Source: Candidatus Polarisedimenticolia bacterium
GTDB taxonomy: Bacteria; Acidobacteriota; Polarisedimenticolia; Gp22-AA2
Direction of reading: 5' to 3'
NCBI GenBank assembly: GCA_036001465.1
Contig: DASYUH010000025.1
Coordinates: 1 to 43,758, forward strand
Length of the DNA: 43,758 bases
A program made the position numbers and the translations under genes. The notes beneath the pieces were generated by a model, which saw only the letters and a list, made by a program, of their open reading frames with translations, was not told where the DNA came from and did not search any database. Of the stretch, positions 2,620-26,119 are shown one piece after another (position 1 is the first letter of the stretch; every line of letters starts with the position of its first letter).

Positions 2620-2657
2620 CACAGACGAACGCAGTCGTCCAACCACGAGGGGGAGCC

Positions 2658-4403: not shown

Positions 4404-4461
4404 GCTGTGCCCCTTGCGTGGAGGAAAAGCGCCGTTCGCCGGCGAGTCATGAGGTGATGCC

Positions 4462-4660: not shown

Positions 4661-4664
4661 CGAC

Positions 4665-5186: not shown

Positions 5187-5215
5187 TTGACTGCACCCCG
5201 GGGTGGGGGTATTTA
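5187..5215 (+). promoter_or_regulatory. sigma-70-type promoter of the 5273-17305 gene cluster
   Basis: TTGACT (5187-5192) and TATTTA (5210-5215) are separated by exactly 17 bases. A T-rich run lies directly upstream of the -35 and may act as an UP-like element. The predicted transcript start near 5222 leaves a leader of about 50 bases before the ATG at 5273 and rules out the alternative TTG start at 5228. Confidence 0.6.
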
Positions 5216-5272
5216 GGCAACAAAACCTTGCCCTTCGACTCCATTTTCGCCCGCAAGGGACGGGGGGAACTG

Positions 5273-8200
5273 ATGCTGCATCGGACTCTTCGCGCCGCCG
5301 CCACCACCGCGTTCATTCTCCTGGCCGCCGCATCGCTCGCGGGGCCGGCGTTCGCCCACAACCCGGCGGAGGTGCACCGGGCGCTCGGGGCGATGGAGGT
5401 CACCCAGTCGATCCAGACCCTGCCGCAGCAGGGGCTGGCGTCGAGCGTGCCGCTGACGGCCCACAAGCCCACGACCATCCGCGCCTACATCGAGGGGACG
5501 CGGCTCACGCACGTGCTGTTCGGCCACTTTCCGGACTTCACGCCGATCTCGGTGGACGGGACGCTGACGATCAAGCAGGGAGGGTCGACCATCGCGACCC
5601 TGGCGGCGACCAACGGGCCGATCTCGGTCACTCCCTGGCTGTCCGCCAATCCGGCGAGCGCCAACAGCAGCCTGAACTTCGACTGGGCGTTCCCGCCGAA
5701 TGGCACGGTGAGCCTGGAGCTCGACATCACGACCAGCCCGGCGTCGATCACCGCCACCGATCCGCCGGCGCAGATGGTCACGTTCGTCCACAACCAGCGC
5801 CTGCGGATCGAGGGGGTGCGGCTGCAGTTCGACCACGACAACAACCCGGCCACGCCGCCGACCAAGACGCCGGACCCGGCGCTGGTGGCGAACGGGCTGG
5901 ACTGGTTCCGCAAATCGGGGCCGATCGCCCCCTGCAAGCTGCAGTACTGGGTCAACCCGACGCCGCTGCAGTGGACGTCCGATCTCTCGAGCACCGTCGA
6001 CCCGGGGGGCGTCCTGCGCTCGACCCTGGCCGGCATGCGGGTTCAGGGCTCGACGACCTACGACCAGGCGTACGGCTGGTGGCAGGGGGGCGTCTCGGGG
6101 AACGGCAACTCGTCGCTCCCGGGCTCCTGCGCCTCGACCATCGGGCGCGGGGCTTACGGGAACACCGACCCGACGCGGCACCAGAGGACGTTCACCCACG
6201 AGCTGTACCACAACTATCATCAGGTGCACTACGCGGACGGCGCGCCGGACGTGAACTGGGCGTGCGACGCCCACCCCGGGCTGGACACGAACAGCGGCCA
6301 GCTGGGCCTGGTCGGCTGGGACACCTCGACCGGGACGCCGGTCCCCTCGACCAAGCTGGACGTCATGGTCCCGGGGCAGGTGACCTCGGCGGCGTGGCAG
6401 GACTCGGCCCGCTACTCGATCATGTGGAACAAGTGGGACGACCCGGGGCCGGAGTCGCTCTTCGACACGTGCCACTTCAACTGGTGGCAGGCCTTCCCGC
6501 TCGAGACCTTCCTGCCGTTCGGGCCGATCCTGACCTCGGAGGAGAACCTGCCGAACGTCGACTTCATCCTGGTGACCGGGGGGATCGATCCGTCCCGCGT
6601 GGGGAAGCTGCACCCGGCCTGGCGGCTGAAGCGGCCGATCCCGCCCGACCCGCCCGAGGGGTTCCGCGAGGGGGACTTCGCCGTGCAGCTTCTCGGGCTG
6701 CAGGGGCAGATCGTCGACGAGCGGCGCTTCTTCGCTGACTTCGACGACCCGGACGGCGACGGGCACAACCAGTCCGATTACGCCTTCCTGATGCACATCG
6801 CGACACCGCTCGGCCCGACCGGGGCGCTCAACCTGAGCGAGATCCGGCTGATGGACCTGGCGAGGGGCGCGCTGCTTTCGTCGATTCGCCTCACGCCGGG
6901 CGTGCCCGCCGTGCAGATCCTGAGCCCCGATCCGCGGCAGACGCCGGTCTTGAACCAGCCGTTCGAGATCCGCTGGGCCGCCTCGGACGCCGACGGCGGG
7001 CCGCTGACCTACGCCGTGCAGTACAGCCCGGACAACGGGCAGCACTACCTGGCCCTGGCGAACAACCTGACGCAGCCGTCGTATATCGGCGACCCGGCCA
7101 TCCTGCCGGGGGGCGCGCACATCGTCCTGCGCGTGCAGGCGTCCGACGGCTTCAACGTCGGCGAGGCGACGGCCGGCACGTTCCAGGTCCCGCGCAAGGC
7201 GCCGCAGGTGTTCATCCACTCGCCGGCGGAAGGCTTCCCGCCCGACCCCGTCATGCCGATCTTCGCGGAGTGCCGCGGGCTGATCCTGGTCGGATCCGGG
7301 ACGAGCCCGGACGATGGGGCGCTCCCCGGCGATATGCTGGAGTGGTCGGACGACATCCAGGGACCGCTGGGCCGCGGCTACCTGCCTCCCGGCCCCTGCC
7401 TGACGGCCGGGATCCACAAGATCACCCTGACCGGCACGGACAAGGCGGGGCGGCAGGGGACGGCGTCGATCCAGGTCAAGGTCGTGCCCCCCGGGCTGGA
7501 CAGCGACGGCGACGGGACGCCGGACTACGCCGATCGCTGCGGGGTCAATCCGGGCCCGCCCGGGAACGACGGCTGCCCGTACGCGCCGGACGCCCTGCCG
7601 CTCGACGTGAGCGTGCAGATCAACCCGGGGCCGCCGGGCGGGCAGTTCACCAGCTTCTTCGACGTCTTCTTCGACGTGACGATCACCAATCCCCGGCCGG
7701 CCGACGTGATGATCGAGACGCTGCACGTCTCGAGTTTCGTTCCGGGCGACAGCCTGTCCATGATCGACCTGCCGCTCCCGACCCTGCTCGGCCCGGGGCA
7801 GTCGCAGACCTTCAGGTACTCCTTCTTCGACGTGTTCGTCCCGCCCAGCCCGATCGTGTACGGCGACTACGCCGCCGTGTTCGAGCCGATGGCCGGGCCG
7901 AACAACCCGCTGGGCCACGGCGGGGTCGGGTTCCAGGTCGTGCCGTCTCTCGCCGCGCGCTGCAAGCCGATGCAGGTCGGCGGACCGCTCGGCTGGTCGG
8001 TCAAGGCCCCGATGCCCGACGGCCGCGAGGGGGCCGCCGGGGTGATCATCGGCGACAAGATCTTCGTGACGCACGGCGAGCGGGCCGGCTTCCCCGACAC
8101 GTCCACCAACTTTGTCTACGACATCCCCTCGAACACCTGGGGGGCCGCCGCCTCGGCGCCGCTGCGGCGGGCCGAGCTGACCGGCGTCTGCATCGAGACG

Positions 8201-11200
8201 CGCGACGGCAGGGCGAAGCTGTTCGCGGTCGGCGGGCGCAACCAGGCGTCGGGGACGGTGCTGAACAACGTCGAGCTGTACGACCCGGCGGCGAACGCGT
8301 GGGCCGCGGGACCGCCGATGCCGACGCCGCGCCGGGGCCTGGGGGCCGCCTTCGTGCCGGGGCCCGGGGTCGCCGGGGGCCAGCTCGGCAGCGTGTACGT
8401 GATCGGCGGCGGCGACGGCCTCGCCCCGCGCTCGGGAACGCCGCTGAAGGCCAACGAGGCGTTCGACGTGGACCTGGGCGTCTGGGTCGCGAAGGCCCCG
8501 ATGATCCGCCCGATGATGGACGTCTACTCGACGACCTACTTCCCCGGGACCGGAAAGATCTACGTCATCGGCGGCTACAACGGGCTGGCCGAGGACCAGG
8601 CGGTGCAGGTCTACGACCCGGCGACCGACACCTGGAGCCTCGGGGCCCCCATGCCGACGCGGCGCTCCAACCTGGTCACCGGCGTCTGCGGCACGCGCAT
8701 CTACGCCATCGGCGGCTTCGACGGCGTCAATCTATTGTCCCGCAACGAGGCCTACGATCCGTTCGCCGACGCCTGGATCGTGCCGCAGCCTCCCAAGCCG
8801 ACCGCGGTCGCGGAGATCTCGTCCCAGTTCGTCTACACCGGCACGGAGATCTACGCCATCGCCGGCGTCCTGCCGGTCAGCCCGCCGAGCAGCGCCAACG
8901 AGGTCTTCACCTGCGGCGAGGCGCCGCCGTTCTGCCAGTCGGACGCCGATTGTGACGACGGGGTGTTCTGCAACGGGCGCGAGACCTGCCTCGCCACCAC
9001 GGGGGCCTGCCAGAAGGGGACGCCGCCGATCTGCGACGACAACAACCCCTGCACGGCGGACCGCTGCGATCCCGGCCAGGACGCCTGCCGGAACGTGCCG
9101 CTGGCCGACTCGGAGACGGCCAACGGCCTGGACGGCCTGTGCGGCACGGCCGACGACAACCCGCTGCTCGACGGCCCGGACGGCGTGTGTGGCACGGCCG
9201 ACGACGGCCACGGCGACGGGCTGTGCGATCCGATCGACAACTGCCCGTTCCGGTTCAATCCCGATCAGAAGGACAGCGACGGCGACGGGCTGGGGGACGC
9301 GTGCGACTGCGCCCCGAACGCCCCCGGGACGCCGGTGCCGGGCCCGGTCGGCCCCACGCTGATGCTGGCGAATACGCCCGTGCCCGGAGTCACGCGGCTC
9401 AGCTGGGGGGCCATCGCCCTGGCCGAGACGTACAACACCTACCGCGGCACGATCCCCCGGACGATGATGGGGAGCCGCGCCGCGCCCTACGACCACGGCT
9501 GCTTCGAGAAGGACGACGCGCAGCAGAACGGCCCCACCATCTCGGTGGACGGGATGGCGCCCCCCGCGGGGATGGCCTTCTACTACGACAACACCGGCCA
9601 GACCGGCTGCGGCGAGGGGCCGCTCGGCCAGGCCTCGAACGGCGACACCCGGCCGAACATGTTCCCCTGCTCCCCCGGGCCCGGGACCTCGGTCGAGACG
9701 CCGCCGCACGTCGATCCACCGGATCCGAACGCGCAGATCCCCTGCATCGGGAATCCGGACACCCTGCCGGCCGGCGTCGGGGCCCAGCTCCCGGCGTTCG
9801 AAGGGGACCCGATCTTCCTGAGCTTCCCGGTCGCCCTCGCGAGCACCCAGACCGCGGCCGAGGTGCGCCAGAAGTTCATCCTGCCCGCCGTGCAGGCGAT
9901 GGGGACGTGCTTCACGCGGGGCGCCCAGGTCCTCTTTCCTCCGCCCGACGACGGCATCGCGCAGAAGCGGGCCGATTTCAGCGGACTGGCGAAGGACGTG
10001 GAGTTCGAGTTCATGAGCTTCCCCGAGCTTTTGCGCCCCGAGACGCAGCACATGATCGACGTCTTCCTCGGGCGGGTCCCGCCCGACGCGGAAATCGACG
10101 AGGCCCTGGAGACCGGCGAGGGGATGAACTTCGCCCAGTACGTCGCCGGGATCGAGCGCCAGGAGATCATCTATCCCTTCCAGCAGATGGAGAGCGGCGT
10201 GCCGATCGAGCACACCATGCTCCTCGCGTCCCGCTGGGAGGGGCAGGCGGTCACGAGTGTCCGGGGGGCGCTGGTGAACCGGTACAGCGTCGGCAACCAG
10301 GTCATGATTCCGATGGCCGACGCCCCGGCCGTGGGGATCAGCGCCCTGCGGGCGACCCCGGGTGTTCTGGCGGTCCTGTCGCAGCGGGCGGAGGACGGCC
10401 CGTACCTGGTCCTTCTCCCCTACGGCAGCGATCGCCAGGGGATCGTGCAGCTGCGCTACGCCTACCGGATGATCCTGAACGGCCTGTCGGCCGGCCTGGC
10501 GGACGGGCCGTTCCTCCTGTGGCTCGATGCCGCGACCGGCCAGATCCTCGAGATGACTCCCCTGTTCAGCGACGTCAGCGCCACGGGCGAGGTGTACAAG
10601 CGCGACCCCGGCCTCGGGACGGTCTTGCAGTCGTTCCAGGTCGATCCCGCCGCGGGGGGCCTGTACACGCTGAAGCTGGCGGGGGTGATGAACCGGGTCG
10701 ACTACAGGGGGAACGGGTACGACGCCTCGGACATCAGCATCTCCGACAGCTCGGGGGGCAGCAGCGGCACGTTCGCCAACTTCAACCAGTCGCCGATCAA
10801 CAATGAAGCCCAGGCGCTGTGCGCCTCGGGGACCAACAAGGCGTTCCAGCAGGTCGACTTCTTCGCCAGCATCTACCGCTATCGCCAGACGGTGCTGAGC
10901 AACGGCATCTTCACCCCCTTCCCCGCGTCGGTCTGGAACCCCAAGGTCGAGGTCAAGAGATGCGCCGGCGGCTCGAACAACGGCGGCTTCTGCACGGGCA
11001 ACCTCGATTGCCCGGGCGGCACCTGCGGCAACTGGTGCAACGCCAACGCCTCGATGACGTACGGGGCGTGCGCCGGGTACTTCGACGCCGGCTGTCCGAA
11101 CGTGCCGGGCGAGTTCACCAACTTCGCGCACGACAACACGGTCGTGGCGCACGAGCTGGCGCACAGCATCACGCCGCGCCTGACCAACGCCCGGCCGGGC

Positions 11201-12358
11201 GACTGGTGCTGCACGCCGTTCTGCTTCTTCCCCTGCGCCATGCCGCTCGGCTGGGGGAAGTTCCACGACCTGGCCGACTTCTGGGCCGACCACTTCGAGA
11301 ACACCAACTGCACGGCGGGGTGGGTCGGCAAGAACATCGGCGGGCCCGTGAACAACAGCCTCAACTGCTCGCCGGGGAACAACGAGGCCGGCTACCTGCC
11401 GCGGCTGCACGAGGTGTCGGTGCCGTTCAACCCGGGGGACGCGGGGGATCATTTCCCCGAGCACCGCGGCCCGGGCACCAGCAGCTGCAATTACGACGAC
11501 GGACAGATCGGCGCGGCGGCGCTCTGGCAGGTGCGGCTCGGCATGCGCAGCAAGTGCCGTCCCTCGGGGGTGCCGCAGTTCGGCGTGCGCTACCAGCGGG
11601 CGATGAAGCACACCGGCTTCTTCGGGGCCGCCCCCGCGTGCAGCGACCTCGGCATCTACCGGCACCTGTACGACCTCGAGACCGAGATGCTCGATCAGTG
11701 GGCCACCTCCGGGTCGCCGGGAGGGCCGCCGGCGTTCGCCCATAACGGACCGCACAGCTCGAACAAGGTCACCGCCGGCTTCGCGCGCGCCGGCGTCTTC
11801 CTGGTCCCGTACACCTGCCTGGACGGCGGGGCTCCCTGCCTGGCGGGCGAGAACGGGGCCGACGCGGTGATCGACGTGGACGACAACGATCCCGGCGACG
11901 ACCTGACGCTGAACGGCGTCTACATGCCGGAAGTGGACTACCTCGAGCTGGCCGGGCCGGCCCCGACGTTCCACGTCTGGACGGGACCGCGCTACCGCCT
12001 GGACGGCGTCGGCGGCGACGCGACGTTCAGCAACCCCGCACCGTGCAACGCCAAGTTCAAGGTGGAGGTCTCGACCGATCCGACCTTCCCGTCCCCCATC
12101 ATCGACAGCCCGTGGATCGACGTGGACCGCGATCCGTCGACCGCCGCCAGCCCGGAGTGCTACGGAACCTGGACCCCGAACGCCGGCAAGTGGAACCAGC
12201 TGCAGGCCGGCGGCGCCCTCAGCCGGATCTACTACCGGGTCAGGACCAGGGACGCGTCGGACGGCAACGAGCGGCTGTCCACGACCCCCGGGAACGGGCT
12301 GTGGAGCGTGCCGCCGCCCTATGCCGTCCTGACCGTGGACGGTGAGCCTGAATACTGA
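5273..12358 (+). CDS. giant secreted protein with two HExxH motifs, Kelch and TSP3 repeats
   Basis: This 2361-residue protein has a signal peptide (hydrophobic core to GPAFA, residues 1-26). Residues 309-319 read HELYHNYHQVH, which fits the metzincin zinc site HExxHxxGxxH with His replacing Gly; LDVMVPG about 50 residues later could be its Met-turn. Next come Ig/Fn3-like segments, a TSP3 motif (LDSDGDGTPDYADRC, about 742), five or six Kelch blades (about 905-1212; YVIGG, YAIGGFDG), a Cys-rich segment (about 1215-1280) and another TSP3 motif (about 1322-1350). A second zinc-type motif, VVAHELAHSITPRL at about 1957-1970, resembles fungalysin (M36); its third ligand is unclear. A CxGG...DCPGGTC segment lies near 1897-1915. 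Start 5273 has GGGGGGA upstream. Probably an extracellular peptidase/adhesin; substrate unknown. Confidence 0.85.
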   Translation: MLHRTLRAAATTAFILLAAASLAGPAFAHNPAEVHRALGAMEVTQSIQTLPQQGLASSVPLTAHKPTTIRAYIEGTRLTHVLFGHFPDFTPISVDGTLTIKQGGSTIATLAATNGPISVTPWLSANPASANSSLNFDWAFPPNGTVSLELDITTSPASITATDPPAQMVTFVHNQRLRIEGVRLQFDHDNNPATPPTKTPDPALVANGLDWFRKSGPIAPCKLQYWVNPTPLQWTSDLSSTVDPGGVLRSTLAGMRVQGSTTYDQAYGWWQGGVSGNGNSSLPGSCASTIGRGAYGNTDPTRHQRTFTHELYHNYHQVHYADGAPDVNWACDAHPGLDTNSGQLGLVGWDTSTGTPVPSTKLDVMVPGQVTSAAWQDSARYSIMWNKWDDPGPESLFDTCHFNWWQAFPLETFLPFGPILTSEENLPNVDFILVTGGIDPSRVGKLHPAWRLKRPIPPDPPEGFREGDFAVQLLGLQGQIVDERRFFADFDDPDGDGHNQSDYAFLMHIATPLGPTGALNLSEIRLMDLARGALLSSIRLTPGVPAVQILSPDPRQTPVLNQPFEIRWAASDADGGPLTYAVQYSPDNGQHYLALANNLTQPSYIGDPAILPGGAHIVLRVQASDGFNVGEATAGTFQVPRKAPQVFIHSPAEGFPPDPVMPIFAECRGLILVGSGTSPDDGALPGDMLEWSDDIQGPLGRGYLPPGPCLTAGIHKITLTGTDKAGRQGTASIQVKVVPPGLDSDGDGTPDYADRCGVNPGPPGNDGCPYAPDALPLDVSVQINPGPPGGQFTSFFDVFFDVTITNPRPADVMIETLHVSSFVPGDSLSMIDLPLPTLLGPGQSQTFRYSFFDVFVPPSPIVYGDYAAVFEPMAGPNNPLGHGGVGFQVVPSLAARCKPMQVGGPLGWSVKAPMPDGREGAAGVIIGDKIFVTHGERAGFPDTSTNFVYDIPSNTWGAAASAPLRRAELTGVCIETRDGRAKLFAVGGRNQASGTVLNNVELYDPAANAWAAGPPMPTPRRGLGAAFVPGPGVAGGQLGSVYVIGGGDGLAPRSGTPLKANEAFDVDLGVWVAKAPMIRPMMDVYSTTYFPGTGKIYVIGGYNGLAEDQAVQVYDPATDTWSLGAPMPTRRSNLVTGVCGTRIYAIGGFDGVNLLSRNEAYDPFADAWIVPQPPKPTAVAEISSQFVYTGTEIYAIAGVLPVSPPSSANEVFTCGEAPPFCQSDADCDDGVFCNGRETCLATTGACQKGTPPICDDNNPCTADRCDPGQDACRNVPLADSETANGLDGLCGTADDNPLLDGPDGVCGTADDGHGDGLCDPIDNCPFRFNPDQKDSDGDGLGDACDCAPNAPGTPVPGPVGPTLMLANTPVPGVTRLSWGAIALAETYNTYRGTIPRTMMGSRAAPYDHGCFEKDDAQQNGPTISVDGMAPPAGMAFYYDNTGQTGCGEGPLGQASNGDTRPNMFPCSPGPGTSVETPPHVDPPDPNAQIPCIGNPDTLPAGVGAQLPAFEGDPIFLSFPVALASTQTAAEVRQKFILPAVQAMGTCFTRGAQVLFPPPDDGIAQKRADFSGLAKDVEFEFMSFPELLRPETQHMIDVFLGRVPPDAEIDEALETGEGMNFAQYVAGIERQEIIYPFQQMESGVPIEHTMLLASRWEGQAVTSVRGALVNRYSVGNQVMIPMADAPAVGISALRATPGVLAVLSQRAEDGPYLVLLPYGSDRQGIVQLRYAYRMILNGLSAGLADGPFLLWLDAATGQILEMTPLFSDVSATGEVYKRDPGLGTVLQSFQVDPAAGGLYTLKLAGVMNRVDYRGNGYDASDISISDSSGGSSGTFANFNQSPINNEAQALCASGTNKAFQQVDFFASIYRYRQTVLSNGIFTPFPASVWNPKVEVKRCAGGSNNGGFCTGNLDCPGGTCGNWCNANASMTYGACAGYFDAGCPNVPGEFTNFAHDNTVVAHELAHSITPRLTNARPGDWCCTPFCFFPCAMPLGWGKFHDLADFWADHFENTNCTAGWVGKNIGGPVNNSLNCSPGNNEAGYLPRLHEVSVPFNPGDAGDHFPEHRGPGTSSCNYDDGQIGAAALWQVRLGMRSKCRPSGVPQFGVRYQRAMKHTGFFGAAPACSDLGIYRHLYDLETEMLDQWATSGSPGGPPAFAHNGPHSSNKVTAGFARAGVFLVPYTCLDGGAPCLAGENGADAVIDVDDNDPGDDLTLNGVYMPEVDYLELAGPAPTFHVWTGPRYRLDGVGGDATFSNPAPCNAKFKVEVSTDPTFPSPIIDSPWIDVDRDPSTAASPECYGTWTPNAGKWNQLQAGGALSRIYYRVRTRDASDGNERLSTTPGNGLWSVPPPYAVLTVDGEPEY

Positions 12359-12363
12359 TCGCG

Positions 12364-15300
12364 GTGCGGCGGACGCCTGATCGCCGGCGCTCCGCCGCGG
12401 CGCCCCGGGTCCTGGCCCTCGCGTGCGGCGTGGCGGCCGCGTGCGGCTCGCTCCTCGCGCGCGATGCCGCCGATGCGCGCGGGGCCGCCGACGCGCGCGA
12501 TGCCGCCCCGGCCGCCGCGATTCTGCCCGCCGAGGCTCCGCCCGCACCGGGGCCGGCCGCCTTCGTCTCCACCCGTCACCCGGACACCGCCGACACCCGC
12601 GGGCCGTATCCGATCCTCTTCAGGCAGCTCGCCGGCCCCCCGGCGGTGGCGGGGCGACTGATCTACTCGGTCCTCGGAGCCGGCGGGCCTTCCGCCACGG
12701 AGCCGGGCGTCGTCCTCCGGCGCGGCCGCGACGCGGGGACCTGGGTCGGCGAGATCCCGGGCCAGGCGGCGGGCTCGGCGGTCGCGTACCACGCCGTCTT
12801 CTCGAGCGCCGCCGGCGGCGAGAGCCGTCATCCGGCCCGCGCCCCGGCGGAGTACCGCTTCCGCGTGACGGCGTCGAGCGTGCTTTCGGTGCGCGCCCCG
12901 TCCGCGGCGGAGCTCGCCCGCGGGCGATCGGCCGTGGAGATGCGCGTCGGGGCGTCCTCCCCTCCCGTCGCCGAGCTGGTGGCCCGTCTCGCCGACGAGG
13001 ATCCCGGGTCCCTCGCCGACCGCCGCATCCCGTTCCAGGTGGTCCGGCGCGAGGGAACGGGCGGGCCGGCCGCCATCTACGTGCTCAGGGCGAGCCTTCC
13101 CGATCCGGCTCCCGGCGGGATCGTGGACTTCTACGTCGAGCTGCGCGACGCGGGCGGCGGATCGTCGCGCTGTCCCCCCGACGCGCCGGCGCGGGCGTAC
13201 AGCGTCAAGCGGTCGATGCGGTCGCTGAGCCGGCTGGATCCGGGCAGGGCGTTCGTCCTGGGCCTCGGCGCTATGGACGGGGCGCGCTTCATCGGCCTGA
13301 GCGGCGGCGGGCTCTGGCTCGCCCTGGGGGACGGAACCCTGCGCCGGCTCGGTGCCGAGGCCGGCGTGGCCTCGGGACTGGCGCGGCTCGTCCTCCCCGA
13401 CCCGGCGATCGGACGCGTCTTCGTCGGGACCGACAGCGGTGTCGTGGAGATCGGCGCGGACCCTTCGTCCTGGCTGCCCGTGGGCCCGCCGCGCTCGAAC
13501 TCCTGGAGCCCCGCACCGCCGGCCTGGGGACGGGCCGCCTGGCGTCAGCGCGCCGGCCCCGGCGCCCTCTCGACCCTGGACGGCACTCTCCTGGTCCAGA
13601 TCCAGGGAGAGGATCCCGGGGGACGGAGAACGGCCGAAGCGGAGCTCCTCGTGCTTCGGGACGGCCGGCTCGAGCGGCGCCCCCTGCCCGCTCCGGACGT
13701 GCCGCTCGCCGGGCTCTCGGCCGCGCTGTTCGACCCGATCGACGGCTGCTTCGTCCTGGGCGGGTTCGTGCGCCAGGGGGGGCAGGGGATGAGGCCCGCC
13801 GTCATGCGATCCTGCGGCGATGCGCCGCGCGTCATGGCCCTGCGCGATCCACCCGCCGGCGACCGGCCGGTGACTCTGCAGCGCATCGTGGCGCTGGCCC
13901 GCGATCCCGCCTCGGGAAGCCCGGTCGTGGCCCTCGACATGCTGACCGCCGACGCCGCGCAGCCGGAGGACGGCTCGCGCCCGGGGGACGGCTCCGACCG
14001 GCGGACCGTGCGCGGCATCTTCCGCCTCGACATGGAAACCGGCCGGCTGGCGCCGCTCGCCCCCGGCGCCGACGCCCTGGACGTCGAGGTCACCGGGCTC
14101 GCCACCGACTGGACGACCGGGCGGATCCTGGTCGGAACGTTCGGGCGCGGCCTCCTGTCGGCCGCGCAGGATGGCCTGCGGCCGCTCGCTCCGCAAGCCG
14201 GGGGCGGCGGGATACGGCCAGGTGCGCCCGGCACACCCCGCGAGATCACCGCCCTGCGGGTCGAGGAGGCGATCGGGACCGTTCTGGTCGGCACCTCGAG
14301 CGGCGCCTTCGAGATCTCCGCCGGGCGGGACCGCTGGCTGCCGATCGGGCCGGCCGGCGACGGCCCGCTCCTCGCCGACGCCCTGCCGGCCGACGCGGAC
14401 GCGGGAAGCGGCCGTGTGCTTCTGTCATCCCACCAGGATGGGCTGGTCGAGCTGAAACGGGACGCGCGCGGCTCCTGGTCGATCGCACGGCACTGGCGGC
14501 CCGGCAGGGATTTCCCCGAGGGGGGCGCGGGGGACGCCCGCTACGCTCCGGGTGGCGGCCTGGTCGCGGTCCTGGAGTCGCGCGGGCTGGTCCTGATCGA
14601 GAAGGACGGGAAGGCGGCGGTCCTCGGGCCCGGGGACGGGCTGCAGGGGCCCTACGTGCAGCGGGTCCTGGCGCGCCGCGACGGGGACATCTGGGCCGTG
14701 CACCTGCCGCTGCCGTTCGGCGCCGACGCCCGCTCCTCGCTGCAGATGATCCACGCCGGCAGGGTGGCGCGCACCGTCGAGATCGCCGGCCGGGAGGCGG
14801 CCACCGTGGCCCGCTGGCTGGAGGTTCCCGGGCGGGACTCGGTGTTCGCCGCCACGCGGGCCGGGGTGCTGGAGATCCGCGCGGACGGAACCTGGGAGCG
14901 CCGCTCCACCGACGCGGCTTCGTCCATCGCTCGGGACCCGGTGAGCGGGACGATCGGCGTCGTCGGCGCGCGGGTCGAACGCTGGGACGAGGCTCGACTC
15001 CAGCCGGTTCTGTTTTCGCTGCGGCATCCGCGCCGGGCCCGTGGGAAGCCTGGCGCCGCGTCGCCGATCGATCTGGCGATCGACGGACGCGGCATCTGGC
15101 ACGTGCTCTACCCGGGAGGGGTCATCGCCCTGCTCCGGCCGGACGCCGGGGCGGCCGACATCCTCGATCCGGAGGACGGCGTCCCCCCGACCGCGGTCCG
15201 CCTCCTCGCCGACCCGCGCACCGGCGACGTCTTCGTGGGGAGCGACGGGGAAGGAGTGGCGATCGTCGGCGCCACGGTCGGGGGCACACTCACTTCGTGC

Positions 15301-15372
15301 CGTGGCTGCGTTATTATTCGGGCCTCAACAGCCAGCCGGCGCCCAGGGACGCACTCGGGGAGGACACCGTGA
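12364..15372 (+). CDS. exported beta-propeller-like protein
   Basis: The 1002-residue product starts at a GTG five bases after the previous stop and has an N-terminal export signal (LALACGVAAAC; the Cys could be lipidated). An Ala/Asp-rich linker with an 18-base tandem repeat (from 12466) follows, then Ig-like domains to about residue 280. The rest has many blades of the type VFVGTDSGVVEIG, ILVGTFGRGLLSA, VLVGTSSGAFEIS and VFVGSDGEGVAIVG, like the Reg_prop repeats of periplasmic sensor propellers, but no transmembrane or kinase domain follows. The last 30 residues read through the upstream region of the next gene and look non-conserved. Its stop overlaps the next start (GTGA, 15369-15372). 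It probably binds a ligand or partner outside the membrane; no function can be assigned. Confidence 0.78.
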   Translation: MRRTPDRRRSAAAPRVLALACGVAAACGSLLARDAADARGAADARDAAPAAAILPAEAPPAPGPAAFVSTRHPDTADTRGPYPILFRQLAGPPAVAGRLIYSVLGAGGPSATEPGVVLRRGRDAGTWVGEIPGQAAGSAVAYHAVFSSAAGGESRHPARAPAEYRFRVTASSVLSVRAPSAAELARGRSAVEMRVGASSPPVAELVARLADEDPGSLADRRIPFQVVRREGTGGPAAIYVLRASLPDPAPGGIVDFYVELRDAGGGSSRCPPDAPARAYSVKRSMRSLSRLDPGRAFVLGLGAMDGARFIGLSGGGLWLALGDGTLRRLGAEAGVASGLARLVLPDPAIGRVFVGTDSGVVEIGADPSSWLPVGPPRSNSWSPAPPAWGRAAWRQRAGPGALSTLDGTLLVQIQGEDPGGRRTAEAELLVLRDGRLERRPLPAPDVPLAGLSAALFDPIDGCFVLGGFVRQGGQGMRPAVMRSCGDAPRVMALRDPPAGDRPVTLQRIVALARDPASGSPVVALDMLTADAAQPEDGSRPGDGSDRRTVRGIFRLDMETGRLAPLAPGADALDVEVTGLATDWTTGRILVGTFGRGLLSAAQDGLRPLAPQAGGGGIRPGAPGTPREITALRVEEAIGTVLVGTSSGAFEISAGRDRWLPIGPAGDGPLLADALPADADAGSGRVLLSSHQDGLVELKRDARGSWSIARHWRPGRDFPEGGAGDARYAPGGGLVAVLESRGLVLIEKDGKAAVLGPGDGLQGPYVQRVLARRDGDIWAVHLPLPFGADARSSLQMIHAGRVARTVEIAGREAATVARWLEVPGRDSVFAATRAGVLEIRADGTWERRSTDAASSIARDPVSGTIGVVGARVERWDEARLQPVLFSLRHPRRARGKPGAASPIDLAIDGRGIWHVLYPGGVIALLRPDAGAADILDPEDGVPPTAVRLLADPRTGDVFVGSDGEGVAIVGATVGGTLTSCRGCVIIRASTASRRPGTHSGRTP

Positions 15373-16790
15373 AGAGCAGAAAAAGCGTCAACCGTCGTGA
15401 CTTCGCCAGGACCACGCTTGCCGCGGGGGCCGCGGCCGTGGCGTTTCCCGAGGTGCTCCGCGCCGGGGTGGCCGCCGAGGCGGCCGAAGGGACCCGTCCG
15501 GCGGTCGACGCGCCCCCCGCGCCGGCCGGAGGGGCGGCCGCCCGGAGCTACCCGAACGGGTGGCGCGAAGGGACGACGATCCCGGCCGAGTATTACCTCG
15601 ACCCGAAGCACTACCACAACGACGAGCGCTTCATCGCCGACCACTTCTGGCTGATGGTCGATCACGAGAGCCGGATCCCCGCCGCCGGCGACTACTTCGT
15701 CTTCGAGTACGGTCGTGGCGAGAGCGTCATCATCGTGCGCAACGGCGAGGGGGCGGTGAAGGCCTGGCACAACGTCTGCCGTCATCGAGGCTCGAGACTG
15801 TGCCGGGACAGCGACGATCCGAAGCCCGGGGATCCCCGCCTTTCGGTGCGCCAGCTGAGCACCAGCGGCAACACGCCGGTGTTCCGCTGCCCGTACCACG
15901 GGTGGACCTACGATCTGGACGGCCGCCTCATCCAGTCCTACAGGATGCAGAAGGATTTCGACCCGGCGAAGAACGGTCTCGTCCCCTGCCACGTGCGGGT
16001 CGCCGAAGGGCACATCTTCGTGAACCTGTCCCGGAAGGACGCGCCCCCCGATTTCGAGAAGAGCCTCGAGTATTTCCGGGATGTGGCCCGGCAGTACAGC
16101 TTCGCGAAGCTGAAGATCGGGCCCAGGCGCTTCTACCCGATCAAGGCCAACTGGAAGCTGGCGATCGAGAACTTCCTCGAGTGCTACCACTGCGGCCCCT
16201 CGCACAAGAACCTGGTGACGACCCACAACTGGGACCACCAGCTTTCGGACGAGCAGCAGGCCCGGAGGGACAGGGAGGTCGCGGCCTGGATCGCCCGGCA
16301 GTCGAGCGCGGCGGCCGCCGCGAAGCAGGCCATGGGGATGGGGGGGCCGAGCAGCCCCACCAGCTTCGAGGGGGAGCTGAACCCGGGCTTCCTCACCGGC
16401 TCGCTCGACGGGAAGCCGCTGGCGCCGCTCCTTCCCGGCATCAAGGACTGGACCCACAAGACCAGCATCGCGACCACCGACTGGTCGACCGCCTACTGGC
16501 AGGCATACGACGATCACGTCATGGTGGCCCGCTTCACGCCGCGCGACGTCGCCCTCACCGATTGCGAGATCTTCTGGCTGGTCCATCCCGATGCGGTCGA
16601 GGGAAAGGACTATAGCGCCGACAAGCTCATGGCCCTCTGGGGCATCACCATCCAGGAGGACATCTGGATCGTCGAGAACAACCACCTCGGCATCACGTCG
16701 GGCGCCTACAGCTCCGGGCGCTACGCCGGCAACGAGAACTATCCGGCCGACTTCATCAAGTGGTACATGACCGAGGTCGTCAAGGCGTGA
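15369..16790 (+). CDS. Tat-exported Rieske-type ring-hydroxylating oxygenase, alpha-subunit-like
   Basis: The 473-residue protein begins with a Tat signal (NRRDFARTT followed by an Ala-rich hydrophobic stretch). The [2Fe-2S] Rieske ligands are Cys137/His139 (CRH) and Cys174/His177 (CPYH). The 34 residues between them exceed the usual 15-17, so this is an extended loop. The mononuclear iron site is in NFLECYHCGPSH (His274, His279), with a candidate carboxylate in QEDIWIVENN. The overall pattern is closest to the GbcA/choline-monooxygenase-like branch. The GTG start has GGGGAGGA 4 bases upstream and overlaps the previous stop; TATTAT at 15312-15317 might be an internal -10. No reductase or ferredoxin gene adjoins it; a cytochrome c gene does. 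Export of such an oxygenase is unusual. Substrate unknown. Confidence 0.9.
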   Translation: MKSRKSVNRRDFARTTLAAGAAAVAFPEVLRAGVAAEAAEGTRPAVDAPPAPAGGAAARSYPNGWREGTTIPAEYYLDPKHYHNDERFIADHFWLMVDHESRIPAAGDYFVFEYGRGESVIIVRNGEGAVKAWHNVCRHRGSRLCRDSDDPKPGDPRLSVRQLSTSGNTPVFRCPYHGWTYDLDGRLIQSYRMQKDFDPAKNGLVPCHVRVAEGHIFVNLSRKDAPPDFEKSLEYFRDVARQYSFAKLKIGPRRFYPIKANWKLAIENFLECYHCGPSHKNLVTTHNWDHQLSDEQQARRDREVAAWIARQSSAAAAAKQAMGMGGPSSPTSFEGELNPGFLTGSLDGKPLAPLLPGIKDWTHKTSIATTDWSTAYWQAYDDHVMVARFTPRDVALTDCEIFWLVHPDAVEGKDYSADKLMALWGITIQEDIWIVENNHLGITSGAYSSGRYAGNENYPADFIKWYMTEVVKA

Positions 16791-17305
16791 GGGGGTTGCC
16801 GGCGGCCGGCCTCATGCTGCTCGCTCTCGGTTGCGCGGCGCGAAGGGGGCCGCAGGATCTCGCGGCGCCGCAGGACGTCGCGTCACGGCAGGACGCTGCG
16901 CCGCCGCAGAGTGTCGCGGCGCCCGCCGTCCCAGTCGCACCGCTCGCCCCGCAGCGCAGCATCCGGGACGGCGTGTACACCGAAGCGCAGAGCCGGCGCG
17001 GCGAGGCGGTCTACTTCACGTCCTGCTCGCAATGCCACAAGCCGACGATGACGGGACTGGAGGTCGTGCCCCCGCTGGTCGGCGAGGCGTTCCTGTCCCG
17101 CTGGAACACGCGCACGGCCGGCGATCTGTTCGAATGGATCCGGAAGGCGATGCCCTTCGGCAACACCCCGAAGCTGAGCGACCCGGAGTATGCCGACGTC
17201 CTCGCCTACATCCTGAGCCGGAATGGATTTCGCGCCGGCGAGGCGGAGCTCGCCGCCGATTTCGCCACGCTGGCGGAGATCCGGATGGCGCCGGCCGCGG
17301 ACTGA
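16787..17305 (+). CDS. lipoprotein c-type cytochrome, monohaem
   Basis: This 172-residue protein carries one haem-binding CSQCH motif (Cys80, Cys83, His84) and a probable distal Met in RKAMPFGNTPKLSD, the class I cytochrome c arrangement. A hydrophobic N-terminus ending LLALGC suggests a lipid anchor, followed by a Pro/Ala/Gln-rich tether (about residues 20-60) with repeated APQDV/SRQDA-like units. The GTG start overlaps the Rieske stop (GTGA at 16787-16790), so the two proteins are probably made together. The position suggests it passes electrons to or from the Tat-exported oxygenase; this is inference. The earlier in-frame GTG at 16760 lies inside the Rieske gene and would spoil the signal peptide. 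Confidence 0.85.
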   Translation: MRGLPAAGLMLLALGCAARRGPQDLAAPQDVASRQDAAPPQSVAAPAVPVAPLAPQRSIRDGVYTEAQSRRGEAVYFTSCSQCHKPTMTGLEVVPPLVGEAFLSRWNTRTAGDLFEWIRKAMPFGNTPKLSDPEYADVLAYILSRNGFRAGEAELAADFATLAEIRMAPAAD

Positions 17306-17946: not shown

Positions 17947-20217
17947 TCACCTCGGCGGCGGCCCGGTCTTGTCGATCAGGCGGGACAGGGCGGCCCGGTC
18001 CGCCTCGAGCAGCTCGTCGATGCGCTTTTTGCTGACCTCCGCGACGATGATGTGGCCGACCTCGCTGCGCACCTCGCTGAAGATCCCGTGGTTCTTCATC
18101 TTCTGGGCCTGGTAGACGTTGTCCTCCGTCGGGCTGACGTAGTGCACCGAGGTGGCCTTGTAGCGGTGGATCAGGAAGAGGTGCACCAGGTCCATCAGGC
18201 GCTTCTTGCGCAGCCTCTCGTCGAACGTGTTCTGGTCGCGGATCGACAGGATGCTGTGTCCCTTGCGGTCGAGGATGTTGGCGAAGACGACGTTGGCCAT
18301 CCTCTCCTCCGTCTCGTTGAACAGGCCGAGCTCGAGGACCTCCGAGCCCGGGCTGTGCGGGCGCAGGTGCACGCGCAGCCTGATCGGGAGCTTGTAGTGC
18401 CCGGCCCACATCTCGAGCCACTCGGCGAGGAGCTTGCGCGGCACCTCGGTCTGGACCAGGTGCTGGACCTGGGTCGAGCCCTTCCCCATCGCCATGGTGG
18501 TCGCCGTGCGGCCGGTCGAGGCCATCAGGGCGCCGTCGAGGCGCGGGCCGCCGACCAGGGTCTGCGGCGTCCGGTAGGGTGACTCGAGCAGCCGGAACTT
18601 GCGCTGCAGGCGCGCCAGCGCCAGCATGCCGTCCTGCTTCAGCCCGGTGGCGAACTCTTCGGCCGCAAGGCCGTCGATCTGGTGCCCGCCGTAGGTGATG
18701 AAGTTGAACACGTACCCCAGCTTGCCGAGCTCCTCGGGGAAGCGGCGCATCTGGTCGTCGTTCATGCCGGTCGTGTCCCAGTTGAACGACGGCGACAGGT
18801 TGTAGGCGAGCATCCTGTCCGGGAACTCGGCGTGGATCGCCCGGGCGAACTTCGCCGCGTCGTCCAGGTTCGCCGTCTTGGTCTCCATCCACAGCAGGTC
18901 GGCGAAGGGGGCGGCCGCCAGCGACTTGGCGATGGAGTAGTCGATCCCGCTCTTGACGTGGTAGTAGCCCTCCGGGGTCTTCGTCGGCTCGCAGTCCCAT
19001 ACGACTTGAAGCCCGAGAGAGCGGGCCTTGTCGCGCACGGCGTAGTGCGACGCCTTGCGGGCGAAGGCCTGCCATTCGTCGGCGGTCATGTCGAACTTCT
19101 CTCCCTCCCCCAGCCGGAAATTCATGACGTCCGCGACGGCCTGCCCGCAGGTCTTGAGGCCGGCCTCCGCCTCCCAGATCTGCAGGCACTTGTTGACGAT
19201 CGGGTCGAGCACCTTGTCGACGTTCGGCTCCTTGCCCGACTTGAAGGCGCGGGCCCCTTCGTCGATCAGGGTCGTCACGCCGGCGCGCTTCAGCCAGGCG
19301 ACGGCGGCGGTGAACTCTTCGCCGGACAGCGCGAACAGCAGGTGCCCGCGGATCGCGTCGATCCCCGCGTCGTGCAGCGTCTTCAGGACGGCGATGTAGC
19401 AGGCCTTGAAGGTCGGCAGATCGAGGTTGGTTGCGCCGATGATGAACGGCTGGTCCCGCTCGTCGCCGCGGCCGTCGATGAAGGTGGCGGACTCGGCGTC
19501 GGTGCGGGCCACGATGAGGCCCGGCACCCCCATGATGTCGTACTGGAAGCGGGCGGCGTTGAGGCGCTTGATCTGCTCGTCCTGGGGGACCAGGACCTTG
19601 CCCCCCTGGTGGCCGCACTTCTTGACGCCCGGCTTCTGGTCCTCGATGTGGCAGCCGGGAATGCCGATCTCGACGAAGCGGCGGACCAGGTTGCGGACGT
19701 GGGCGTCGCCGCCGTGCCCCGTGTCGGCGTCGGCGATGATGAAGGGACGGTAGTCGATCGCGGGGGTGGCGGCGCGCTGCGCCTCGGTCATCCGCGCGCG
19801 GGCGAAGTGCTGGTTCTTGTCCGCCGCGAGCAGGGCCCGCACCAGCGGGGCCGCCTCGTCCGGCACCGCGCTCAGCGGATAGCTCGCCAGGTCGGCCCCC
19901 GGGTCCTCGTGCGCCGAGCCCTTGGCCGAGGTCGCCCAGCCTCCCAGGTAGATCGCCTCGATCCCGAGCCGCTTCATGGAGACCGCCTGCCCGGGGGAAT
20001 ACGGGCCGAAGGTGGTGATCTGCCTGCGCGTCTCGAACAGCTCCCGGAGCCGGGCGTAGAACCCCTCGGCCGCGGCGCGCGCCACGGCGTAGTCCCCCTG
20101 GATGGTCCCCTGCTGCTCGGCCACGTCGGCCGGCGAGTACAGCCGCACGATCCCCTTGAAGCGCGGGCTGTCGAACCACGTCCGGGCGGCCTCAACCTGC
20201 CTGTCGAATGCGCTCAT
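17947..20217 (-). CDS. aceA: isocitrate lyase, long form
   Basis: It splits isocitrate into glyoxylate and succinate, the first step of the glyoxylate bypass for growth on acetate or fatty acids. The catalytic motif KKCGHQGGK is present near residue 211, with [10 protein letters not shown] and NLSPSFNW also matching the family. At 756 residues it is far longer than the usual bacterial form of about 430 and resembles the long ICL2 class of actinobacteria, including [17 protein letters not shown] and a C-terminal domain of about 150 residues (in ICL2 this region regulates activity). Start 20217 has AGGAG 6 bases upstream and overlaps the malate synthase stop by 4 bases (ATGA). The upstream open frame to 20310 is not part of the gene. 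Confidence 0.95.
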
Positions 20218-22211
20218 CGTGTGCTCCTGCCTCTCTGCCCGCGGGCCGGGGGGCCGAAGTCCAGGTTCCCGGTGATCCGCCTGCCGTCCCTGGAGAGCGT
20301 CTCCAGGCACAGGCGGACCCGCTTCCCGGCCTCGTCCAGATCATGATTGTTCAGGTTGATGTTGAGCAGATCGATGAACCACGGCGGCTTGACGTCGGAG
20401 CGGACATAGGCGTCGACGATCGCGCGGGCGATCGGCAGGGTCGTCCCCTTCGAATCGTCGTGGACGTCCCGATTGCCCGCGCGGAGCAGCTTGTCGTATT
20501 CCTCCGCGAGCAGCCGCCCGAAGAGCGCGGGGGTGAACGGCTCGCCCGCTCTGGAGCCGGCCGCGGCGCCGCCCGCGCCCGGGGCGCCGTCCGCCACGGC
20601 GCCGTCGCCGGCCAGCCGCGCCCCCTTGTGCAGCCATTCCCACAGGATGCTGAGGCGGATCTCGCCCGTCGCCATGTCCTCCATCAGGTAGAGGACGTCG
20701 TCGTTGCCGAAGAAGTCTGCCGGCTTGAGCGCCGCGGCCTGGAGCCCCTGTCCGAACGCGTTCCCGTACTGCAGCGCCACGCTGAGCAGGTCGCGGGCGC
20801 CGCGGACCGTCCGCGGGGCCGGCTCGAGCGAGAGCAGGCCATCGGCGTCGGCGTCCGTGTAGGCGAGGGCCGGGAAGGCGCGTCCCAGCTGGTTGTCCTC
20901 GCCGGCCTTCTCCCAGACCGGGCGCACGATGTGCACCATCTTCCAGTGCGCCACCCATTTGCCGCTCGCCCCCGCGCTCTGCTCCCGCTCGGCGCCGGCC
21001 ACCGCCCGGCGCATGCCGCTCTCGACCCCGGCCGCCGACCCGACGGGGATGTTGGGCTCCATCCCCCCCTGCCAGAGGGCGCGGCCCCCGTTCCGGTCGG
21101 GCGTGTTCACCGCGCGCCGGACGCGGTCCTCGTAGGTCCGCATGTATCCATAGGTCATCGTGACGTCGCCGATGTTCGGATGAAGGAACTCCGTGTCCCA
21201 CGCCATCGCGTCGGCGACGCTGTTGATGTAGTCCCAGCGGCCGGTGTTGAAGCCGACGAAGTGCAGGCCCAGGGCGGCGCGGATCTCCATGAGCTGGAAG
21301 CTGGCCTCGAGCTGCTCGACCAGAACATACGCCTTGATGGTCCCGGCGGCCAGCCCCAGGTGCCCTTCCAGCGCCGCGAGGATGTCGTTCCACAGGGCGG
21401 CCTCCTCGGCCGTCTGGATCTTCGGCAGGTACAGGACGATGGACGCGCCGGCCCGCCGGAGCGCCGCGTGGGTGTTTGCCACGTAGAGCGCCGTATCGAC
21501 GATCGACGCGGAGAACCCGGCGCCGTCGGCGCAGCGCACGTGCCGGTCGTCCAGGTGGAGCCCGCGGGGGCGGAACAGCTGCGTGGTGAACGTCAGCTGC
21601 GCCTTCCAGTCGTCGACGATCGGCCGCCCCAGGAAACCCCGCGCCCAGCCGTTCATCTCCTCCGCCACCTGCCCGGCGACCTTGAGGAACTCGGGGGCGC
21701 GCGCGGTGGCGATCTTGAGGCTCCTCTGGTTGTCGAGCGACATCGTCCCGACCTGGCCCAGGGCGTCCTCGCCGTCGAACATCCAGCCGTCGGCCCCCGA
21801 CAGCAGCGCGTAGGCCACGTTGCGGAGGCTCGTCTCGAGAGGGGCGTTCGGCCGCGCCGCCGGCCCGGTCCCCTGGATCCATTGCCGTCGCAGGTCGCGC
21901 GGGATCTCGGGGCCGGTGAACCTCCCCGCGCGGGCGTCGCGGACCTTGATCCCGGTCCGGGGGATCACGGAGTCCGGGTCGAGGAAGCCGATGCGCGTCT
22001 TCGTCCCCGCCCGCTCCGCCCGCCGCCGCATCCGGGCCTCCATCAGGGCCCCTCGTTCGGCATCGAATCTGGCCAGCGCCGCCAGCGCCCCCCTGGCCTC
22101 GGACGTGAAGAGGTCCGCGTACTCGCGCTCGACGCCGTCGCGGATCTGAAGCGCGGGTGTCTTTCCGGCGGTGCCGGCGCGCTTCGGGCCCGTGCCCGTG
22201 GGGGCCTTCAT
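20214..22211 (-). CDS. aceB: malate synthase A-type
   Basis: It condenses glyoxylate with acetyl-CoA to malate, completing the glyoxylate bypass. The 665-residue protein shows [31 protein letters not shown] (substrate-binding region), [11 protein letters not shown] and [19 protein letters not shown] with the catalytic Asp, all typical of the AceB type. It is over 100 residues longer than E. coli AceB; an Ala/Gly-rich low-complexity insert (about residues 520-550) and a basic N-terminal extension account for part of this. It is the first gene of the operon, ending in an ATGA overlap with isocitrate lyase. No clear Shine-Dalgarno or promoter is visible upstream of its ATG. Confidence 0.95.
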
Positions 22212-23737: not shown

Positions 23738-25063
23738 ATGAGCGACCCGCTCTTCTGGCATCGCCTGCAGTTCGGCTTCACCATCACCTACCACTACATC
23801 TTCCCCCAGCTGACGATGGGGCTGGCGCTCCTCATCGTCGTGATGAAGCTCGTGGCGCTGCGGGGCGGGAAAGCCGCCTGGAACGACGCCGCGCGGTTCT
23901 GGATCCGGATCTTCGGGCTGTCGTTCACCATGGGGGTCGTCACCGGCATCCCGATGGAGTTCCAGCTCGGGACGAACTGGGGATCCTTCGCCCAGCGGAC
24001 CGGCGGCGTCATCGGCCAGACGCTGGCGATGGAGGGGATCTTCGCGTTCTTCCTCGAATCGAGCTTCCTCGCCGTCCTGCTGTGGGGCGAGCGGCGGCTG
24101 GGCCCCCGGCTGCACTTCGCCGCCGCCCTCGCGCTCCTCGCCGGGAGCTGGCTGTCGGGCTATTTCATCATCGCGACCAACGCCTTCATGCAGCACCCGG
24201 TCGGCCATGCTCTCGACGGGGACGGGACGTTCCGGCTCGCCTCTCTCGCCCGGTTCGTCTTCAACCCCTGGGCCGTCGCCCAGTACCTGCACAACCAGAT
24301 CGCGGCCGTGGTGACCGGGGCGTTCGTGATGGCGGCGGTGGGCGCCTACTGGACCATCAGGCGGTCGCACGGCGAGGTGGCGCGCGCCTCGCTGCGCACG
24401 GGTGTCGTCGCCGGGCTCCTGGCCTCCATCCTCGTGGCGTTCCCGACCGGCCACGCGCAGGGACGGATGCTCGCGGCGCACCAGCCGGTGACGCTCGCGG
24501 CCATGGAAGGGCGGTTCGAGAGCGGCCCGCGGGCGCCGCTCGCCATCATCGGCCAGCCCAACGTCCACGCGCGCAAGCTCGACAATCCGATCCAGCTCCC
24601 GGCGGTCCTCTCCTGGATCGCCTACGGCGACTTCTCGGCCAACGTGCGGGGCCTCGCCGAGTTCCCGGAAGGGGACTGGCCGACCAACATCGAGCTCCTC
24701 TATTATTCGTACCACATCATGATCGGCCTGGGGACGCTGTTCATCGCCGTGATGGGTCTGGCGACGGTCTTTCTCTGGGGAGGCCGGCTCTGGTCGGCGC
24801 GCGTCGTGCTCTGGATCCTCATCCTCGCGTTCCCGTTCCCGTTCATCGCCAACACCGCGGGCTGGCTGACCGCCGAGTTCGGCCGCCAGCCCTGGCTGGT
24901 CTATGGCCTGATGCGCACCGCCGAAGGGGGCTCCCCCACCGTCCATGCCGGCACGACCCTGTTCACGACGCTCGGCTTCGCCGGTCTCTACTTCGTGCTC
25001 GGCGTGCTGTTCCTCGCCCTGGTCGCGAAGGAGATCGGGCACGGTCCGGCGCGACGCGCCTGA
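23738..25063 (+). CDS. cydA: cytochrome bd quinol oxidase subunit I
   Basis: This 441-residue membrane protein carries the haems and quinol site of cytochrome bd, which reduces oxygen to water with high affinity and without proton pumping. His19 (in TITYHYIF) is the conserved axial haem ligand; QYLHNQIAAV carries a second conserved His, and GTNWGSF, ESSFLAVLLWGERR and EFGRQPWLVYGLMRT are family signatures. The periplasmic Q-loop is the short type, as in the cyanide-insensitive (CIO-like) branch. The cydB gene follows after 12 bases with its own GGAG. This suggests respiration at low oxygen. Confidence 0.95.
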   Translation: MSDPLFWHRLQFGFTITYHYIFPQLTMGLALLIVVMKLVALRGGKAAWNDAARFWIRIFGLSFTMGVVTGIPMEFQLGTNWGSFAQRTGGVIGQTLAMEGIFAFFLESSFLAVLLWGERRLGPRLHFAAALALLAGSWLSGYFIIATNAFMQHPVGHALDGDGTFRLASLARFVFNPWAVAQYLHNQIAAVVTGAFVMAAVGAYWTIRRSHGEVARASLRTGVVAGLLASILVAFPTGHAQGRMLAAHQPVTLAAMEGRFESGPRAPLAIIGQPNVHARKLDNPIQLPAVLSWIAYGDFSANVRGLAEFPEGDWPTNIELLYYSYHIMIGLGTLFIAVMGLATVFLWGGRLWSARVVLWILILAFPFPFIANTAGWLTAEFGRQPWLVYGLMRTAEGGSPTVHAGTTLFTTLGFAGLYFVLGVLFLALVAKEIGHGPARRA

Positions 25064-25075
25064 GGAGATCGGGTC

Positions 25076-26119
25076 ATGGAAACGCTCTGGTTCGCGCTCG
25101 CCTCCGCGATGGTGGCGATCTACGTGGTGATGGACGGCTTCGACTTCGGGGCCGGCGTGCTGTATCGCCGGGTCGCCCGGAACGATCGGGAGCGCCGGCA
25201 GGTGCTCGCCGCCATCGGCCCGTTCTGGGACGGCAACGAGGTCTGGCTGATCGCCGGAGGGGGCGTCCTGTTCATGGCCTTTCCGAAGGTCCTCGCCTCG
25301 GCCCTGTCCGGCTTCTACCTGGCGATCATGCCGGTCCTGTGGGTCCTGATTCTCCGCGGCATCTCGATCGAGTTCCGCTCGCACGTCGACGATGCCATGT
25401 GGCGCGCGTTCTGGGACGCGACGCTCGCCATGGCCTCGACGCTCGCCTCCCTGCTCCTCGGCGTCGCGCTCGGGAACCTCATCCGCGGCGTGCCGCTCCT
25501 GGAGGACGGCTGGTTCTCGCTCTCGTTGTTCGAGTCGTTCTCGCCGCGCGGCGCGCTCGGCCTCCTCGACTGGTACACCGTCCTCGCCGGGCTGCTCGCG
25601 CTCGCGGCCCTGGCGCACCACGGGGCCCTCTTCCTCGCCTGGAAGACGGACGGCCCCGTGCGCACCCGGAGCCTGAAGGCAGCGGGCGTCCTCTTCCCCG
25701 CGGTCGTCGTCCTCTGGCTCGCGGCGACCGCGGCGACGGCGTCGGTCGCTCCGGAGCTCTTCCCGGCCCTCGCGGCCCGGCCGGTCGCCTGGCTGGCGAC
25801 CGCCCTCTTCCTCGTCGGCCTGGCGGGGACCTTCGCGGCCCGCCGTGCGGGGCGGGACTTCCTCGCCTTCGTGGCCTCGGGCGCCTTCCTCCTCGGAATC
25901 CTCGGCGCGACCGCCGCCGCGGTCTATCCGACCATGATCCGGTCGATCAGCGAGCCGTCCCGCTCGCTCACCGCATTCAACGCCTCGGCGGGCAGGGAGT
26001 CGCTGGCGGCCGGCCTGTCCTGGTGGCCGGCCGGCTTCGCCCTGGCCATCGTCTATGCGGTCGTCGTGTTCCGCCTCCACCGCGGCAAGGTGCGGGCGGC
26101 GGACGGCGAAGGCTACTGA
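25076..26119 (+). CDS. cydB: cytochrome bd quinol oxidase subunit II
   Basis: This 347-residue protein has about eight or nine membrane segments and partners CydA. It carries the N-terminal signature YVVMDGFDFGAGVL, then GPFWDGNEVWLIAGGG and FRGIS-type loop RGISIEFRSH, all typical of CydB. The full length is present, so the oxidase should be functional. No cydX-like small subunit and no cydDC transporter is seen nearby; the 63-residue ORF that follows is not CydX-like. Confidence 0.95.
   Translation: METLWFALASAMVAIYVVMDGFDFGAGVLYRRVARNDRERRQVLAAIGPFWDGNEVWLIAGGGVLFMAFPKVLASALSGFYLAIMPVLWVLILRGISIEFRSHVDDAMWRAFWDATLAMASTLASLLLGVALGNLIRGVPLLEDGWFSLSLFESFSPRGALGLLDWYTVLAGLLALAALAHHGALFLAWKTDGPVRTRSLKAAGVLFPAVVVLWLAATAATASVAPELFPALAARPVAWLATALFLVGLAGTFAARRAGRDFLAFVASGAFLLGILGATAAAVYPTMIRSISEPSRSLTAFNASAGRESLAAGLSWWPAGFALAIVYAVVVFRLHRGKVRAADGEGY

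Follow-up and report, generated by a model that had tools for sequence, protein, structure and literature searches.

The window (the whole stretch of 43,758 nucleotides that was analysed, from a Candidatus Polarisedimenticolia bacterium) carries on its plus strand, at 15369..16790, a gene with a GTG start for a Rieske non-haem iron oxygenase alpha subunit. The product has 473 aa, resembles the Group-V/GbcA-Stc2-like proteins, and is predicted to be exported by the Tat pathway. Its gene is tightly packed between two others. The start overlaps by 4 nt (GTGA) the stop of an upstream 1002-aa ORF (12364..15372, plus strand), and the stop likewise overlaps by 4 nt (GTGA) the start of a cytochrome gene (16787..17305, plus strand). 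The 1002-aa ORF has no Pfam or NCBIfam match, is not conserved at the other oxygenase loci described below (L025, L026, and L027), and is possibly co-transcribed with the oxygenase-cytochrome pair. Propeller-like repeats can be recognized in its product by eye.

The oxygenase, its predicted export, and its neighbors

The oxygenase consists of a CxH...CxxH Rieske [2Fe-2S] domain (PF00355, 50.9 bits against a cut-off of 20.3) and a Ring_hydroxyl_A catalytic domain (PF00848, 99.7 bits against a cut-off of 24.9), as is expected of an alpha subunit. The presence of PF00848 also separates it from Rieske carriers of the bc1/AioB type, which have no oxygenase catalytic domain. The best NCBIfam match was GbcA (NF058607), which covered residues 66-470 with 225.8 bits. 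Because the equivalog cut-off of this family is 670, the protein is a relative of GbcA that falls outside the GbcA equivalog. It appears to be a member of the quaternary-ammonium demethylase group (GbcA/Stc2/CntA-like), with quaternary ammonium compounds as the presumed substrate class.

The active site is conserved. Residue roles reported for the group (PMC10952381) place the bridging Glu271, the CxxC pair C272/C275, and the iron ligands H274 and H279 at 16179..16205 (plus strand). The CxxC pair lies within ECYHC at the same place as C206/C209 of CntA, and a Cys-x-x-Cys beside the mononuclear iron site marks certain members of Group V, whose substrates are quaternary ammonium compounds (PMC10952381). 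The third iron ligand is Asp431 (16659..16661, plus strand). All six residues were invariant in an alignment with GbcA-like proteins and YeaW. In other words, the facial triad is complete, and the oxygenase has both a 2-His-1-carboxylate iron site and a bridging carboxylate.

Oxygenases of the demethylase type normally work inside the cell. The N-terminus of the window oxygenase, MKSRKSVNRRDFARTTLAAGAAAVAFP, reads as a twin-arginine signal, after which come an uncharged hydrophobic stretch and a Pro/Ala linker. The putative signal peptide (MKSRKSVNRRDFARTTLAAGAAAVAFPEVLRAG...) occupies 15369..15500 (plus strand) with its twin arginines at R9-R10, and TatC is encoded in the genome of the window. 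The motif, the hydrophobic stretch, and a genomic Tat system are thus all present, and export itself is predicted from them. An RR(D/H)FA motif, the uncharged stretch, and the linker were kept in every homologue, each with a matching start, and were absent from the surveyed relatives. A Rieske protein is a known Tat substrate in the case of the bc1 complex of P. aeruginosa (PMC8432897).

The gene at 16787..17305 encodes a mono-haem c-type cytochrome of the Cytochrome_CBB3 family with one CxxCH, a lipoprotein signal (LLALGC), and a conserved Met-Pro motif, which is typical of high-potential cytochromes. This family is broad, and its members more often accept electrons from periplasmic dehydrogenases. 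c-type cytochromes mature outside the cytoplasm. Because the oxygenase carries a Tat signal and the cytochrome a lipoprotein-type signal, both proteins are predicted to reside outside the cytoplasm. It is very probable that the exported enzyme is paired with this cytochrome. No paralogue of the cytochrome was found in the genome of the window at E 1e-6. The direct neighbors of the oxygenase gene are the 1002-aa ORF and the cytochrome gene; neither encodes an NAD(P)H reductase.

Other genes of the window are worth recording in their own right. A 2376-aa ORF at 5228-12355 (plus strand) contains kelch repeats, shows zinc-protease-like HExxH stretches by eye, and looks exported. Subunits I and II of a cytochrome bd oxidase are encoded at 23738-26116 (plus strand). 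The minus-strand region 17947-22211 holds an unusual glyoxylate-shunt pair, in which a 787-aa isocitrate lyase, whose match is limited to residues 40-302, adjoins a 665-aa relative of malate synthase A that scores well below the equivalog cut-off.

A 17-residue insert in the Rieske domain

The two ligand pairs of the Rieske cluster are C137-x-H139 (15777..15785, plus strand) and C174-x-x-H177 (15888..15899, plus strand). The gap from H139 to C174 measures 34 residues, which confirms the 34-residue loop that a sequence-only reading had reported between CxH and CxxH. HMMER alignments left 17 of these residues without a counterpart in 3n0q and Stc2 (3vca/4qup), the closest relatives with a solved structure, in both of which the gap is 17 residues. 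The gap was 17-19 residues in 26 other Rieske oxygenases from the fetched loci, none of which had a long loop or a Tat motif; a gap of 34 appeared in four rows of this survey, all of them the window protein or its close homologues. The sequence-only reading had set the spacing of the family at about 15-17 residues, slightly below the surveyed range, but was right that the loop exceeds it. A spacing of 17-19 is typical of the family and not strictly defining, and the loop of 34 represents family variation in which the ligands are kept.

The insert itself lies between the cluster-binding loops at 15804..15860 (plus strand; approximately residues 146-164, with boundaries that shift by 1-2 with the alignment). 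Its earlier description as Asp/Pro/Gly/Ser-rich applies to the first half but not to the second half (RLSVRQL), which is the better conserved one. Independent MAGs encode loops of equal length that carry the motif DPxPxDxRLSVxQLxxSGN, and the 17 insert codons of the window and of the homologue at L026 differ by 7 synonymous and 0 amino-acid changes. Because of these two findings, the insert is not a product of chance or of an assembly slip, and recurrence in other assemblies rules out a frameshift origin as well. The insert is under constraint.

Where does the insert lie relative to the surface on which a redox partner docks? Mutants of YeaW put the reductase-docking surface of that enzyme around Arg83, Lys104, and Lys117 (PMC9508527). 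In an alignment that included E. coli K-12 YeaW, and for which the numbering was fixed by matching all three docking residues to the YeaW sequence, these positions correspond to K131, T169, and D182 of the window oxygenase. Lysines 104 and 117 are thus replaced by Thr and Asp, and two of the three docking charges are lost. About five residues separate the end of the insert from T169, which corresponds to YeaW Lys104, and the insert therefore extends the hairpin that carries this docking residue. As judged from this alignment, the insert appears to adjoin the docking face mapped for YeaW. An AlphaFold2 model of the Rieske domain alone had a mean pLDDT of 79, and values below 50 were confined to its first ten residues and the insert; the full-length model (pLDDT 47) was unusable. 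The Rieske-domain model matched NagG (Z 15), 3n0q (13.1), Stc2 (13), and CntA (12) with an rmsd of 2.1-2.8 over ~150 residues, and it placed the insert at a hairpin turn as a low-confidence loop.

Homologous loci and a rare clade

A homologue scan that used one genome per species, and that reaches close relatives only, identified three further loci. L025, from a MAG labelled Acidobacteria, has two tandem copies of the exported oxygenase (2588-4015 and 4031-5464) that are 69% and 67% identical to the window protein and precede one cytochrome gene. This unit is followed by a gene of the homocysteine S-methyltransferase family, which is only a hint toward a quaternary ammonium substrate. L026, from a MAG labelled Chloroflexi, encodes an oxygenase 76% identical to the window protein, and part of this gene reads N. 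L027, from a MAG labelled Gammaproteobacteria, encodes one that is ~63% identical. In the L027 homologue, a frameshift at ~8480-8500 splits the gene shortly ahead of the second ligand pair, indicating a sequencing error or a broken gene. The known set consists of five genes in four genomes, most or all of which are MAGs.

The Tat motif, the ~34-residue loop, and a same-strand downstream gene for a lipoprotein-type cytochrome c occurred together at all four loci (the window, L025, L026, and L027). The spacing between oxygenase and cytochrome genes was -4, ~+51 (putative start), -4, and +7 nt across the four, the genes of the window being among those that overlap, and the cytochromes are related (~42-51% identical). 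Beyond this pair, no gene is common to all four loci. A Tat-signal FAD/NAD-binding oxidoreductase is encoded upstream at L025 (428-2509) and L026 (312-2480), and the two proteins are 29% identical to each other. It was considered as a part of the conserved unit and dropped, as the L025 protein had no match in the genome of the window (in a search run without a positive control) and none was seen at L027. Reductase genes lie beside some of the cytoplasmic relatives, namely a VanB-type gene in L050 and a hybrid-cluster NAD(P)-dependent one in L051.

In a tree from which L027 was left out because of its frameshift, the exported oxygenases formed one clade with 100/100 support, which corresponds to the traits having been gained together once. 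Because all of them arose on one branch, the insert, the Tat signal, and the cytochrome link count as one evolutionary event with no independent replication. The window protein is nearer to the copy from the Chloroflexi-labelled MAG than to those from its own class, a hint of lateral transfer or misbinning. Members of this clade are rare: none besides those above was found in 396 genomes of the phylum of the window, in 369 genomes of the class of the Gammaproteobacteria MAG, or in 301 genomes of the phylum of the Chloroflexi MAG and 18 of its order. Likewise, 72,556 plasmid records contained only relatives below 60% identity, with 37% the best among the matches listed.

Electron supply and comparison with known systems

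Rieske oxygenases are described as being driven by NAD(P)H and fed by flavin/iron-sulfur reductases and ferredoxins. The Tat signal would put the window oxygenase out of reach of cytoplasmic NADH reductases. We infer that the cytochrome is the electron donor because the two genes are coupled and because such reductases cannot reach the outer side; this direction of flow is reasonably probable. The favored reading, to which we assign a probability of roughly 0.55, is that a periplasmic Group-V-like oxygenase receives its electrons from a dedicated membrane-anchored cytochrome c, with the insert adapting the electron-entry face. The oxygenase would fold and take up its Fe-S cluster in the cytoplasm, would then be exported by Tat, and would work at the outer face of the cytoplasmic membrane. 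There, the lipoprotein cytochrome c from the next gene would deliver single electrons to the Rieske cluster, from which they would pass via Glu271 of the neighboring subunit to the mononuclear iron. Activation of O2 at this iron would be followed by oxidative demethylation or hydroxylation. The role of the 17-residue insert would be to fit the electron-entry face to the cytochrome, either by docking or by shielding and tuning the cluster.

The sequence-only reading had proposed that the insert is an adaptation to a different electron donor such as the cytochrome encoded next. The cytochrome part of this proposal has been strengthened, as each homologue identified has both the insert and the neighboring cytochrome gene, and a search for close homologues that combine this insert with an NADH reductase did not turn up any. 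However, the proposal had missed its own key reason, the Tat signal on the enzyme. The other part, a role of the insert in partner docking or tuning, draws on its position and on the co-occurrence. It stays tentative, at somewhat below even odds, because the linked traits share one branch and the insert is a low-confidence loop in the model.

The main difficulty for the cytochrome as donor is energetic. The Rieske centers of bacterial dioxygenases and Rieske oxygenase systems lie near -150 mV (PMC1847435), and the Rieske protein of arsenite oxidase (AioB), at +225 mV, equilibrates with a cytochrome c near +250 mV (PMC5574378). Electron donation from a cytochrome c at ~+250 mV to a Rieske cluster at ~-150 mV would be uphill. 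It would need an upshifted cluster, a low-potential cytochrome, or a strong pull from O2 activation.

Tat-signal FAD oxidoreductase genes just upstream at two of the four loci (L025 and L026) are the main support for a different role of the cytochrome, in which it accepts electrons from a second periplasmic enzyme in the pathway, such as a flavin dehydrogenase oxidizing the demethylated product, and the oxygenase is fed by quinol, a periplasmic ferredoxin-like protein, or peroxide. The Met-Pro motif of the cytochrome also fits an acceptor, and CntA can run on H2O2 by a peroxide shunt (PMC10952381). Yet the oxygenase-cytochrome pair persists, with overlapping genes, in the window, whose genome gave no match to the FAD protein in a search run without a positive control, and it also persists at L027, where none was seen. 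We regard this explanation as unlikely. Very unlikely is a cytoplasmic oxygenase whose N-terminal extension is a start-site artefact or a non-functional signal and whose reductase is encoded elsewhere. Export is a prediction from sequence only, but the signal and linker recur in every homologue, each with a matching start, the partner gene encodes a c-type, lipoprotein-type cytochrome of a class that matures outside the cytoplasm, and TatC is present.

The insert may also have nothing to do with the donor. It could stabilize the Rieske domain or the trimer outside the cytoplasm, or be a neutral hairpin extension that was fixed once in the ancestor of the clade, and the chance of this comes close to even. 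The insert has one origin only, sits with low model confidence at a hairpin turn, where a loop may be merely tolerated, and is conserved about equally to the rest of the protein. On the other hand, its motif is kept across proteins that are 63-76% identical, no replacement accompanies the 7 synonymous differences between the window and L026, and it appears to adjoin the docking face mapped for YeaW.

The favored reading of a cytochrome-fed periplasmic oxygenase extends to a more general proposal, which has slightly less than an even chance of being correct: an NADH-independent class of extracytoplasmic Rieske oxygenases that would draw respiratory electrons via a dedicated lipoprotein cytochrome c and in which the Rieske potential would be raised and the insert would act as a docking loop. 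If true, an exported, cytochrome-c-fed member would break the rule that Rieske oxygenases are NAD(P)H-driven, uncultivated bacteria would not have to import methylated amines or similar compounds in order to attack them, and the enzyme would offer a natural case for what sets the potential of a Rieske cluster and its choice of partner.

Searches of the open-access literature yielded no report of a Rieske oxygenase that is exported by Tat or fed by cytochrome c. Among named systems, Stc2 (PDB 3vca, 4qup, 4quq, and 4qur) and 3n0q share with the window protein the Rieske and catalytic domains, the Rieske-domain fold, the facial triad, and ECYHC, and align over residues 66-470. However, they have 17 fewer residues between the ligand pairs and no Tat-bearing N-terminal extension. 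GbcA, the best NCBIfam match over the same residues, is paired with the ferredoxin reductase GbcB (PMC12093977), whereas the window oxygenase is paired with a cytochrome c gene. CntA and YeaW are likewise Group V enzymes with a bridging Glu and a Cys-x-x-Cys, and the docking face of YeaW has been mapped by mutants; YeaW is, however, only 24% identical overall to the window oxygenase, and these enzymes lack a Tat signal and use an NAD(P)H reductase (YeaX/CntB). AioB and the bc1 Rieske protein resemble the proposed system in that a Rieske protein and cytochrome c exchange electrons. Unlike the window protein, they have no oxygenase domain, and their electrons pass from the Rieske cluster to the cytochrome, the reverse of the direction proposed here.
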